Assembly (NCBI GenBank): GCA_020850535.1
Contig: JADZEM010000077.1
Coordinates: 1-38,413, forward strand
Length of the DNA stretch: 38,413 nucleotides
Direction of reading: 5' to 3'
Origin: Chloroflexota bacterium
GTDB taxonomy: Bacteria; Chloroflexota; UBA6077; JACCZL01
The notes beneath the pieces are model-generated. The model saw nothing but the letters and a program-made list of their open reading frames with translations, was not told the DNA's origin and did not search any database. The number at the start of each line of letters is the position of its first letter. Within the stretch, counting starts at the first letter, position 1. The position numbers were made by a program, and so were the translations under genes. Shown one piece after another: positions 28,227 to 37,335 of the stretch.

Positions 28227-28267
28227 GCGGCGGCCGTCAGCGCCCCGCAACGCCCCCGTCAGCGCAC

Positions 28268-28316
28268 CCCCGCTGCCCCGTCCCCGCGCTGCCCCGTCCC
28301 CGCGCTGCCCCGTCCC
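28268..28316. repeat. Short tandem repeat, 16-bp unit (about three copies)
   Basis: Unit CGCGCTGCCCCGTCCC repeats three times (the first copy lacks its first two bases). It lies after the second hydrolase in the gap 28227-28354. No function is suggested. Confidence 0.6.
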
Positions 28317-30486: not shown

Positions 30487-31347
30487 TCAGGTTGCCGAGC
30501 GGTCCGCACCCGATCTTTCTCGCCGCTGGCCGCTGGCGACCTCCAGCTCCTCGCACACCTCGACCACCCCATCCACCCGTGACGCCACCGCTTCGGCGTT
30601 CTCGGCGTCGTCCAGGTCGTCAACCGTGCCGCGCAGCCTGACGACGCCCTGCACGACGCTGACCTCGATGCTGAGATCCGTCGTGGCCGCATCGTGGCGC
30701 AGGGCGGCCTCGACGGCGTCCACCAGGGCCTCATCCCCGATCTGCCCGTCCGACGAGCGACGCGGCACGATCTGCTCGCTGCCACTGCCAGCGAACCCGC
30801 CAAGGATCTGTGCATCTCCGCGCGTGTCCGTGGTGATCACCGGGTCCATCGGCGGGACGTACGTCTCGTCCAGGTCCGATACAGGATCCGCGGCGTCATC
30901 TGGATCGCCGACCGCCGCGACCGGATCGGTGAAGAGCGGCTGTGCCATGAAGTCAGGATCGACCTCGGCCGTCCGGCCCGGCTCTTCGCCCAGCAGGTGC
31001 GGCGTGGTGGTCAGGTCCGTCTCGTCGGCCAGGATCTCGGCGCGCCCGGGCTGCCCGGCCTCCTGACCGTCGCGTGTGGGCGTGCCGTCGTCTTCCGACA
31101 CCAGATCCAGCTCGCCGCCTTCCCGCAGCTCGGCGTCCTCGCCGTCCGGCCCGACGACGTCGGACACCCGGTCCAGATCGCCCTCGTGCGGAAAGAGCCC
31201 CAACTGAGCGTCGGTCATATCGGGGTGGCGGTCGGCCGGCTGCTGGCCGCGCGGCTGCCTGCCGCCGTCCGTCGCCGCCCTGAGCGCTGAGCGATCCGTC
31301 GAGCGATCATCGGGCCGTGACAATCGCTCGCGTTTCTCATTCGACAT
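30487..31347 (-). CDS. Acidic protein with C-terminal BON domain
   Basis: 286 residues; ATG start with GAGGAGG about 7 bp upstream. The N-terminal 200 residues are charged, low complexity and probably disordered (many Asp, Glu, Pro, Gly; no membrane segment). Residues about 208-276 form a BON domain: ALVDAVEAALRHDAATTDLS, VSVVQGVVRLRGTVDDL and VDGVVEVCEELEV. BON domains bind phospholipids or protect cells from osmotic stress in OsmY-like proteins. Without a signal peptide this one is likely cytoplasmic. It lies just upstream of the ACAD-fold gene on the same strand and 13 bp separates them. Confidence 0.8.
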   Translation of the reverse strand: MSNEKRERLSRPDDRSTDRSALRAATDGGRQPRGQQPADRHPDMTDAQLGLFPHEGDLDRVSDVVGPDGEDAELREGGELDLVSEDDGTPTRDGQEAGQPGRAEILADETDLTTTPHLLGEEPGRTAEVDPDFMAQPLFTDPVAAVGDPDDAADPVSDLDETYVPPMDPVITTDTRGDAQILGGFAGSGSEQIVPRRSSDGQIGDEALVDAVEAALRHDAATTDLSIEVSVVQGVVRLRGTVDDLDDAENAEAVASRVDGVVEVCEELEVASGQRRERSGADRSAT

Positions 31348-31453
31348 AGCTATCCTCCTCGCAAGGGCAGCCGCGCAGGATGCACGTCGCTGCCGTGCAC
31401 GGTCGTCATGACGAGGGGCAGTGCAACGTCAGTGCCAGATGGGGGGTTCTGGG

Positions 31454-31509
31454 TGTGGATCGTGGATCGTGGATCGTGGATCGTGGATCGTGGATCGTGG
31501 ATCGTGGAA
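31454..31509. repeat. Eight 7-bp tandem units (CGTGGAT)
   Basis: Six perfect CGTGGAT heptads flanked by one variant on each side (TGTGGAT and CGTGGAA), 56 bp in total. The 7-bp period does not keep a reading frame in a gene and the region is non-coding. A second array of matching size but opposite orientation lies at 31758. Confidence 0.9.
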
Positions 31510-31560
31510 GCATGCCGGCTTATGTGGGTCGCTGTGCCGTGGCAATCACGCAACTCCCCA

Positions 31561-31727
31561 TGTCATCCTGAGCGCAGCGAAGGATCTCACCCGCTGACCG
31601 TCAACGTTCGCGTCACCCGCCGACCGTCAACGTTCGCGTCACCCGCCGACCGTCAACGTTCGCGTCACCCGCTGACCGTCAACGTTCGCGTCAGCGGGTG
31701 AGGTCCTTCGCTGCGCTCAGGATGACA
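31561..31727. repeat. 38-bp inverted repeat enclosing four 26-bp tandem units
   Basis: Arms 31561-31598 and 31690-31727 are reverse complements with a single mismatch in 38. Four 26-bp units (CACCCGCTGACCGTCAACGT-plus-TCGCGT, the second and third with one C in place of T) run continuously from 31588 to 31691. Both ends of the array therefore overlap the arms. The outer arm (TCATCCTGAGCGCAGCGAAG) is a sequence also known as a widespread intergenic palindrome. There are no spacers, so it is not a CRISPR array. Confidence 0.9.
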
Positions 31728-31757
31728 ACTGGAACTCGCATGCTTTCACTCAACCAT

Positions 31758-31813
31758 TCCCACGCCCCACGCCCCACGCCCCACGCCCCACGCCCCACGA
31801 CCCACGACCCGCG
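31758..31813. repeat. Eight 7-bp tandem units (CCCCACG), inverted relative to the first array
   Basis: Eight heptads, five perfect CCCCACG with TCCCACG before and ACCCACG, ACCCGCG after, 56 bp in total. On the other strand the unit is CGTGGGG, one or two changes away from CGTGGAT of the array at 31454. It lies about 50 bp before the start codon of the sigma factor. The rest of the 515-bp gap 31348-31862 is the other two repeats. Confidence 0.9.
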
Positions 31814-31862
31814 TTCGCATGGGCACGGTTCTTGTAGGCCAGTATCGAAGGGGGCAAGCAGC

Positions 31863-33104
31863 ATGCGTGATAACCTGACGACGCAGTTTCTACCTTCCGA
31901 TCCGGCCGCCACGGATGCCTGCCGCCACCATTCGGCGGAGGACGCGGCGCGCAACCATGCCTACCTGGCCATGGCCCGCGAGCGTGGCTGGATCACGCTG
32001 CACGAGATCATGGAGTTGGCATCTGGCTCGCCGGTGGACGCCGACGAGGCCCGCCACGTCAGCCGCGAGGCCGGTATCGACCTGATCGACGATCGGGGAT
32101 CCGGCGATCCCTGGGCCGACCTGGGTACGCTGGCCGACGAAGGCGCACACGCCTTCATGCCCGGCCAGCGCGATGAGGAAGCGGCCACCGACGAGTTGAT
32201 GGCGGGCGGCCCGGCCTCGCTGTACCTCCGTGAGATCAGCCGCGCTCGCCTGTTGACGGCCGAGGAAGAGGTGGCGCTCGCCAAGGAGCTTGAGGCCGGC
32301 AAGGCCGCGCGGGCGCAGCTCGACCATGGCGTTGACGCCGCCGCCGAGCGCGAGCGGCTCGAAGATGACCTGGCGCGTGGGGAGGAAGCCCGCCGCCGAC
32401 TGATCGAGTCAAACCTCAGGCTGGTGGTCTCGGTGGCCCGCAAGTACCTCGGGCGCGGCCTCTCCTTCCTGGATCTCGTGCAGGAAGGGAACATCGGGCT
32501 CCAGCGCGGCGTGGACAAGTTCGACTGGCGGCGCGGCTTCCGCTTCTCGACCTACGCCTACTGGTGGATCCGGCAGGCCGTCAGCCGGGCGGTGGCCGAG
32601 CAGAGCCGGACCATCCGCCTGCCGGTCCACGTCGTGGAGCAGCTGACGAAGCTCTACAACGTCGCCCGTGAGCTGGAGCGCGATCTCGGCCGGCAGCCCA
32701 CGCCCGCCGAGATCGGGGCGCAGCTTGGCATCAGCGCCACGCGTGTCGAAGAGGCGTTCGCCGCCGCTCGGGTGCCGATCTCCCTGGAGACGAGCATCAG
32801 CGACGAGGGTGACTCAACCCTGGCTGACATCGTGGCTGACGACTTCAGCCGCAGCCCGTCTGAGGAGGCGGAGGAGGCGGTCTTCGGGCAGGCGCTTGAC
32901 CGCTCCCTGGCCGAGCGGCTGACCCCGCGCGAGGCCGAAGTGCTGCGGCTCCGCTACGGCCTGGGCGACAACCGCGAGCGGACGCTGGCCGAGGTCGGCA
33001 AGGAGCTCGGCATCAGCCGTGAGCGCGCCCGCCAGCTCGAAGCCGAGGCGATGCGGAAGCTGCGCCGCGACCTGTCGTTCCGCCGTCAGCTCGCAGACCG
33101 GTAG
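31863..33104 (+). CDS. RNA polymerase sigma factor, sigma-70 family (RpoD/SigA-like)
   Basis: 413 residues from ATG at 31863 with AAGGGGG about 9 bp upstream. It has an N-terminal acidic region and then regions 1.2 (GPASLYLREISRARLLTAEEE), 2.1-2.4 (NLRLVVSVARKYLGRGLSF, LDLVQEGNIGLQRGVDKFDW, RFSTYAYWWIRQAVSRAVAE), 3 and 4 (LTPREAEVLRLRYGLG and TLAEVGKELGISRERARQLE). All promoter-recognition helices are intact, and the order is that of primary or group 2 factors. It would direct transcription of housekeeping-type or stress promoters. The absence of a long non-conserved region suggests a group 2 factor or a short RpoD. The spacer before it carries a remarkable nested repeat. Confidence 0.93.
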   Translation: MRDNLTTQFLPSDPAATDACRHHSAEDAARNHAYLAMARERGWITLHEIMELASGSPVDADEARHVSREAGIDLIDDRGSGDPWADLGTLADEGAHAFMPGQRDEEAATDELMAGGPASLYLREISRARLLTAEEEVALAKELEAGKAARAQLDHGVDAAAERERLEDDLARGEEARRRLIESNLRLVVSVARKYLGRGLSFLDLVQEGNIGLQRGVDKFDWRRGFRFSTYAYWWIRQAVSRAVAEQSRTIRLPVHVVEQLTKLYNVARELERDLGRQPTPAEIGAQLGISATRVEEAFAAARVPISLETSISDEGDSTLADIVADDFSRSPSEEAEEAVFGQALDRSLAERLTPREAEVLRLRYGLGDNRERTLAEVGKELGISRERARQLEAEAMRKLRRDLSFRRQLADR

Positions 33105-36487: not shown

Positions 36488-37270
36488 GTGGCGACGACGG
36501 CCTACGAGAACATCCTGGTGGAGAAGGTAGACGGCGGCGTCGGCGTCATCACGCTGAACCGGCCGTCCAAGCTCAACGCGCTCAGCTATCCGCTCGCCTG
36601 CGAGCTGGACGCCGTGTTGACCCAGTTCGAGGCGGACGACGACGTGCGCTGCGTGGTCATCACCGGGGCCGGCCCGAAGGCGTTCTCGGCGGGCGCGGAC
36701 ATCCACGAGATGGCTGGCCTGTCGCCCGAGGAGCTGGCCGAGCGCCAGCAGCGGCGCGCCGGCTTCACCTGGCGCCTGGCGACCTTCAAGAAGCCGACCA
36801 TCGGCGCAATCAACGGGCTGGCCTATGGCGGCGCGGCGCTGCTCTCCAGCTCGCTCGATCTGCGGATCGGCTGCGAGCGTTCCAGCTTCCGCTTCCTGGC
36901 CGCCACCTACGGGCGAATCAACTCGACCTGGAGCCTGCCCATCGTGGTCGGCTGGGCGAAGGCGAAAGAGCTGCTCTACACCGGCCGCGTCGTGACGGCC
37001 GACGAAGCGCTCCAGATGGGGCTGCTCAACAAGATCGTGCCGAGCGAGCAGCTGCTGGACGCAGCCATCGAGATGGGACGGCAGATCGCCGCGAACACCC
37101 CGGAGATGGTGCAGGGCATCAAGCTGCTGCTGATCGAGGATCTCGGGCGGGCCTGGCACGAGATGTACGAGGCCGAGCGGACCGCCCTGGCCACCACGCA
37201 CCGGCCGAGCGCGATCGCCGACGGGTTCAAGGACTTCCTGGCCCGGAAAGCGCCGGCCGCCGACGCCTGA
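36488..37270 (+). CDS. Crotonase (enoyl-CoA hydratase/isomerase) superfamily protein lacking the catalytic glutamates
   Basis: 260 residues; GTG start, with GGGAGGG upstream at a rather long spacing. The fold is clearly crotonase: GVITLNRPSKLNALS, AFSAGADIHEMAG (first oxyanion-hole segment) and PTIGAINGLAYGG. In an ungapped alignment with rat mitochondrial enoyl-CoA hydratase, the residues facing Glu144 and Glu164 are Leu118 and Ala138, so both acid/base residues are missing while the oxyanion hole is kept. It is therefore unlikely to hydrate enoyl-CoA and may bind or act on acyl-CoA differently, for example as an isomerase, decarboxylase or thioesterase-like member. It precedes the MBL-fold gene, with a 7-bp-period tract in between. 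Confidence 0.9.
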   Translation: MATTAYENILVEKVDGGVGVITLNRPSKLNALSYPLACELDAVLTQFEADDDVRCVVITGAGPKAFSAGADIHEMAGLSPEELAERQQRRAGFTWRLATFKKPTIGAINGLAYGGAALLSSSLDLRIGCERSSFRFLAATYGRINSTWSLPIVVGWAKAKELLYTGRVVTADEALQMGLLNKIVPSEQLLDAAIEMGRQIAANTPEMVQGIKLLLIEDLGRAWHEMYEAERTALATTHRPSAIADGFKDFLARKAPAADA

Positions 37271-37335
37271 CTGCTGACTCCTGATTACCGACTCCTGAAA
37301 GCTGACGACTGATGACTGACGCCGAATGACTGACC
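37267..37335. repeat. 7-bp-period tract (CTGANNN) bridging two genes
   Basis: Nine to ten heptads, mostly CTGANNN (CTGACTG, CTGACTC, CTGATTA, CCGACTC, CTGAAAG, CTGACGA, CTGATGA, CTGACGC, CGAATGA, CTGACC...), run without a break from inside the crotonase stop codon (37268-37270) to the start codon of the MBL gene at 37326 and beyond. The whole 55-bp spacer is this repeat. Confidence 0.75.

Follow-up and report, generated by a model that had tools for sequence, protein, structure and literature searches.

The Ssn family, which Chenal et al. are said to have presented in Nat Commun in 2025, reportedly consists of site-specific single-stranded GIY-YIG nucleases tied to the NTS repeats of Neisseria. 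The STRR sequences of cyanobacteria are heptamer arrays akin to G-rich heptamer arrays. Genes of the REP-associated tyrosine transposases (RAYTs) are flanked by two inverted REP hairpins (Nunvar et al., PMC2817692), and in Neisseria the dRS3 repeat, ATTCCC(N8)GGGAAT, and the neisserial intergenic mosaic elements (NIMEs) have been described (PMC3898611). Intergenic heptamer arrays were reported in Xanthomonas (GGGAATC) and Nostoc (GGGGAYT), where they lie nearer the 5′ neighboring gene (Rehm et al. 2015, PMC4692102). The Xanthomonas arrays often form convergent pairs (PMC4692102), so that convergence of heptamer arrays is not new in itself. Here we analyze a nested repeat in a 38,413-nt stretch of Chloroflexota DNA (the window), and propose that this locus is, on balance, a non-autonomous composite copy (a mosaic, NIME/REPIN-like) of a nuclease-linked hairpin family.

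Results

Layout of the window element

The nested layout that the initial annotation had described was confirmed at its place: an array, an arm, 26-bp units, the inverted arm and a second array follow one another between a BON-domain gene and a sigma factor gene (Table 1). When the inner part (31540-31750) was folded as single-stranded DNA, an energy of -69.2 kcal/mol was obtained (z -9.7), and no shuffle equaled it. The complete ends extend beyond the 38-nt arm first annotated and belong to two types: type A reads GTGAAAGCATGCAAGTCGCAATT-GTCATCC, and type B terminates in GCAACTCCCCAT-GTCATCC. These ends are variable mosaics (37 A-type and 14 B-type), and the window copy is itself a mosaic, with a B end on the left and an A end on the right. 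The outer arrays had been given as equal, of 56 bp each; they measure 54 bp and 52 bp, and their units differ (TCGTGGA on the left, GCGTGGG/TCGTGGG on the right).

Table 1. Parts of the element and its flanking genes, in window coordinates
Feature	Position	Strand	Remark
Flanking gene, BON-domain protein, divergent	30487-31347	-	PF04972, E 1.3e-10
Left heptamer array, GTGGATC x 7.7, 100% matches	31455-31508	+	G-rich strand towards element
B-type terminal segment, ends GCAATCACGCAACTCCCCAT	31509-31561	+	also outside other arms in the genome
Left arm, 38-nt inverted repeat	31561-31598	+	97% complementary to right arm
Hairpin GTC-ATCCT GAGCGCAGCGA AGGAT-C, core GCGNAGC	31562-31586	+	start of left arm
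Four 26-bp units TCACCCGCYGACCGTCAACGTTCGCG, 4.1 copies, 97% matches	31587-31693	+	
Right arm, 38-nt inverted repeat	31690-31727	-	
Inverted hairpin GTCATCCTGAGCGCAGCGAAGGACC	31702-31726	-	
A-type terminal segment GTGAAAGCATGCGAGTTCCAGTT	31727-31749	-	37 A-type ends share consensus
Right heptamer array x 7.4, minus-strand units GCGTGGG/TCGTGGG (plus: CCCACGC)	31759-31810	-	
Flanking gene, sigma-70 family factor	31863-33104	+	

The longest frame of the sigma gene (window 31698-31862; MRSFAALRMT...) crosses the right arm and array. The likely start is the ATG at 31863, rather than the GTG at 31698 that would read through the repeat, and automatic annotation may place the start of the sigma protein too early. 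Two other repeats were noticed in the window. An intergenic stretch (37260-37334) contains degenerate 14-bp repeats of CTGACGACTGATGA type, which an ACTGACA array outside the nuclease copy of another locus (L029) resembles, and a 16-bp unit, CCCGCGCTGCCCCGTC, occurs three times at 28267-28316.

A dispersed family of inverted arms

The window repeat belongs to a palindromic element of which about a hundred copies are scattered over the genome. With up to 3 mismatches, the arm core matched 241 times in the 7.65-Mb genome and its reversed control 0 times, and copies adjoin many unrelated genes. The arrangement of the arms was analyzed in 787 kb of long contig stretches, some of which were chosen for known copies, so that densities in this sample are not unbiased. 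Inverted pairs less than 450 nt apart held 54 of the 70 arms, and arm-pair spacing peaked at 63, 115, 141, 167 and 219 nt, i.e., at 63 plus multiples of 26; these steps indicate a core that typically consists of one to seven 26-bp units. The number of 26-bp units differs among copies, and pairs stepped by 26 bp occur at more than 100 genome sites. A search of the genome for the same layout, as had been suggested, thus found dispersed arms, mostly in inverted pairs, with arrays outside many of them. These dozens of independent copies speak against an assembly artefact, raised initially as a way in which the repeat could be spurious. The initial suggestion of an unknown sort of mobile element comes close, the locus being a copy of a dispersed palindromic family with a nuclease-bearing member; movement was not observed.

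Another family of dispersed repeats, bounded by CCAGGGCGATTGCACGTTGA...TCAACGAACGTGCAATCGCCCTGG, was seen at L044 (C95:8100-8412), at L041 and at L156 near 13300. The L044 copy lies inside an element of the window type, with a possible GGTGAGGTCC duplication.

Heptamer arrays outside the arms

Among short periods in this genome (periods below 12, score of at least 60), seven is nearly the sole one, with 36 arrays, while periods 3, 6 and 9 have one array each. Unit sequences differ by locus (TCGTGGA, TCGTGGG, TCGTAGG, GTCGTGC, AGGTGGC, CAGTAGG, GCGATCA) and their length is constantly seven. CGTGGGT as a unit hardly occurs elsewhere: 396 matches lie in this genome and one in 100 relatives. The window units TCGTGGA and GCGTGGG match neither GGGNATC nor GGGGAYT, and cyanobacterial-type heptamers gave too few matches in five other genomes to be used.

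The opposite, convergent orientation of the two window arrays proved to be a genuine rule, since all 26 of the 26 arrays outside an arm aim their G-rich strand at the arm. Position is also constrained: among 43 arrays scoring at least 50, the hairpin start GTCA lay downstream on the G-rich strand in 29 and upstream on the same strand in one (background 1.5% per window), and the distance from array to hairpin start was usually 30-34 or 53-55 nt. The G-rich strand also runs away from the nearer gene, the left window array lying beside the BON gene start and the right one 52 bp from the sigma start, and the same orientation relative to genes was seen at other individual arrays of the genome.

Array size behaves differently from orientation. 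The equal size of the outer arrays had been read as the mark of one event; in the 9 arm pairs with arrays on both sides, left and right copy numbers were uncorrelated (Spearman 0.0) and agreed within half a unit in 2, so that the similar sizes in the window are coincidental. The view that the repeat is too symmetric for independent events is thus sustained for orientation and position and fails for size, the arrays varying independently of the arms. Separate occurrence of arrays and inverted repeat, which had been named as an observation that would count against a single nested unit, was found in part: of 36 arm pairs, 15 had an array on one side and 12 on neither, and 14 of the 43 arrays had no hairpin start downstream, 3 of them because the contig ends there.

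Contigs C31, C32, C63 and C165 (G000) end within heptamer arrays; the assembly thus breaks at these arrays, and array lengths may be unreliable. At L081:4410-4490 two heptamer-like arrays face each other as the halves of a palindrome, separated by a short loop that contains no hairpin arms. At L086:4241-4276 a CAGTAGG array apparently extends from the stop codon of a gene up to a GTCAT hairpin, a position which suggests that array units may derive from local gene sequence.

Hairpin structure

Two inner stem pairs covary in other genomes, being Watson-Crick in 28/30 and 30/30 cases against 11.0 and 18.3 expected, and the central N of GCGNAGC is unconstrained. By a DNA energy model, isolated hairpins of the CTGA type are only marginally stable and do not surpass shuffles, so that the structural case rests on covariation.

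A GIY-YIG nuclease gene between the arms

The sole stand-alone GIY-YIG gene of the genome (C108:7277-7600, 108 aa) sits exactly between two arms, in the position that the 26-bp units occupy in the window copy, and about 15 heptamers lie on each side of it, outside the arms. Three further GIY-YIG matches in the genome lie in open frames of 670-747 codons. The small protein carries the nuclease domain PF01541 (54.6 bits) with the GIY-YIG residues conserved; its predicted fold is confident, and the top PDB matches were UPF0213 BH0048 and Slx1. NCBIfam has no specific model for it. In the pairs that were read, the GIY-YIG gene was the only gene seen between arms.

Association of nuclease and hairpin in other genomes

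We then analyzed relatives of the nuclease retrieved from 301 genomes of the phylum, and 80 named loci of GTDB genomes. At least one locus is shared by both sets, L066 and L199 being apparently one Thermomicrobiales contig. A GTCAT hairpin was defined as GTC-ATnnn...n'n'n'AT-C, and was considered near when it lay within 250 nt of the nuclease gene. In the phylum set, strong homologues had such a hairpin near in 47/53 cases and on both sides in 31/53; for divergent stand-alone GIY-YIG genes the counts were 3/20 and 0/20. Hairpin density was 4.85 per kb near the nuclease and 0.59 beyond. The named loci gave a near hairpin in 67/80, hairpins on both sides in 52/80 and an inverted pair in 42/80, with 5.0 hairpins per kb near and 0.27 beyond, an 18-fold difference; no hairpin was detected at 13/80. 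By record title, these loci include Chloroflexota, Pseudomonadota, deltaproteobacterial groups, Bacillota, Bacteroidota, Patescibacteria, Planctomycetota, Acidobacteriota, Actinomycetota, Armatimonadota, Nitrospina, Omnitrophota, Cloacimonadota and Zixibacteria.

At the level of genomes, the link was 19/44 against 28/257 (odds ratio 6.2, p 1.3e-6, Fisher), with ancestry only partly removed. Nuclease similarity was higher within the same hairpin type, and 0 of 2000 permutations equaled it, shared ancestry again being only partly removed. Tandem repeats made up 12.1% of the DNA near nuclease genes and 2.4% farther away. The reverse situation was also found: G083 (426 hairpin cores) and G131 (410) are rich in hairpins and yielded no nuclease of this family, which implies either that these genomes lost the nuclease or that it is not required.

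The nuclease loci L051, L073, L062 and L232 carry tandem arrays of 15-34-bp units, some of them made from the hairpin start (GTCAT...).

Discussion

The window locus is, in our reading, probably a non-autonomous composite copy of a hairpin family whose nuclease-bearing member lies elsewhere in the same genome. The position of the gene, the covariation of the stem and the GIY-YIG fold together lead us to consider it quite likely that the nuclease cuts these hairpins. In the most likely mechanism, the locus would become single-stranded on the lagging strand, during repair, or as DNA taken up; the arms would then fold, and the nuclease would recognize the hairpin and nick at its foot. The cut ends would be repaired or annealed, by which the element would be copied, deleted or re-inserted and short tandem units could expand along its borders, the 26-mers on the inner side and the heptamers on the outer. 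That cutting drives the spread of the family is possible, if somewhat doubtful. That it seeds the tandem arrays is a tentative and rather unlikely proposal. Neither an empty site nor a target duplication was found for this element, the sigma relatives in the order having other neighbors; this speaks against a simple account, as do the hairpin-rich genomes that yielded no nuclease.

The alternative that survives best is that the hairpin is passive and has a host role, as a protein-binding site, a transcription terminator or an mRNA stabilizer, with arrays arising by polymerase slippage, and that the nuclease merely settles near hairpins or processes them in repair or transformation. The genomes with many hairpins and without the nuclease fit this account, as does the fact that the heptamer arrays of Xanthomonas and Nostoc obey the same orientation rule without links to mobile elements (PMC4692102). 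However, a passive site would not be expected to enclose a nuclease gene between inverted hairpins across many phyla, nor to form pairs with 26-bp-stepped cores at more than 100 sites, and we regard the account, its parts taken jointly, as unlikely, though worth weighing. A bolder form of the nuclease-linked reading, in which a GIY-YIG single-strand nuclease drives a class of self-amplifying elements whose hairpin-foot nicks spread the palindrome and seed arrays of fixed length, appears to us less likely still; if true, such a class could explain bacterial heptamer arrays: the Xanthomonas unit GGGAATC has the sequence of a dRS3-type hairpin's 3′ half-stem together with its foot, and both the window unit GTGGATC and the window hairpin terminate in GGATC.

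Much less probable is a REP/BIME element mobilized by a RAYT. The anatomy is shared, with hairpins in inverted pairs, a copy number above 100 and one enzyme gene between two inverted hairpins (PMC2817692), but the gene between the arms encodes a GIY-YIG protein and not a Y1 transposase, and a search for PF01797 at E 0.01 gave 0 matches in this genome and was positive in 6 of 14 control genomes. RAYT mobilization was rejected for this genome, the Y1 transposase not being found. A classical MITE of a DDE transposase with long terminal inverted repeats is just as improbable: the long inverted ends, dispersed copies and short non-coding core agree with it, but the pairs that were read contain only the GIY-YIG gene and no transposase, the ends are variable A/B mosaics, and no target duplication was seen. 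The regulation of sigma factor transcription that the initial annotation had proposed is unsupported, and a conserved cis-regulatory element is the least probable reading of all, since, although 52 bp separate the element from the likely sigma start downstream of it, family members adjoin unrelated genes, four sigma relatives (59-64% identity) lack the element, no sigma-70-type promoter match was found from 31300 to 31900, and the single Rfam match, to a miRNA model, was far below the gathering score.

Repeats with hairpins of the GTCAT form are spread over many bacterial phyla without an agreed cause, and the consistent tie to one small nuclease offers a testable agent for them, as RAYTs do for REPs. 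The fixed geometry of hairpin and heptamers gives, in addition, a handle on why bacterial genomes bear 7-bp arrays. A literature search on GIY-YIG proteins with dispersed palindromes found nothing relevant.

The nuclease resembles Ssn in being a small stand-alone GIY-YIG protein with intact motifs whose associated repeat occurs hundreds of times, also beside the nuclease gene. It differs in that the gene here lies within an inverted repeat pair with 26-bp and heptamer arrays, in another phylum, and its cutting of ssDNA is a prediction. We file the link between nuclease and repeat as one of a known kind on the strength of the reported Ssn family. The likeness to dRS3 and NIMEs lies in the mosaic intergenic arrays and in the GTC-ATTCCC...GGGAAT-C hairpins of nuclease loci L179, L198 and L202; the window stem is ATCCT/AGGAT and is accompanied by 26-bp units and heptamers, the GTC-AT...AT-C form being shared. 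With REP/BIME/REPIN systems and their RAYTs the element has in common abundant non-autonomous pairs and an enzyme gene between inverted hairpins, a GIY-YIG nuclease replacing the Y1 transposase. The heptamer arrays are, like those of Xanthomonas and Nostoc, intergenic and oriented relative to the nearer gene, but their units differ (TCGTGGG and others) and they end at fixed distances from a hairpin, a feature unreported in PMC4692102. The nested composite with 26-bp units and heptamer arrays is filed as a new variant.
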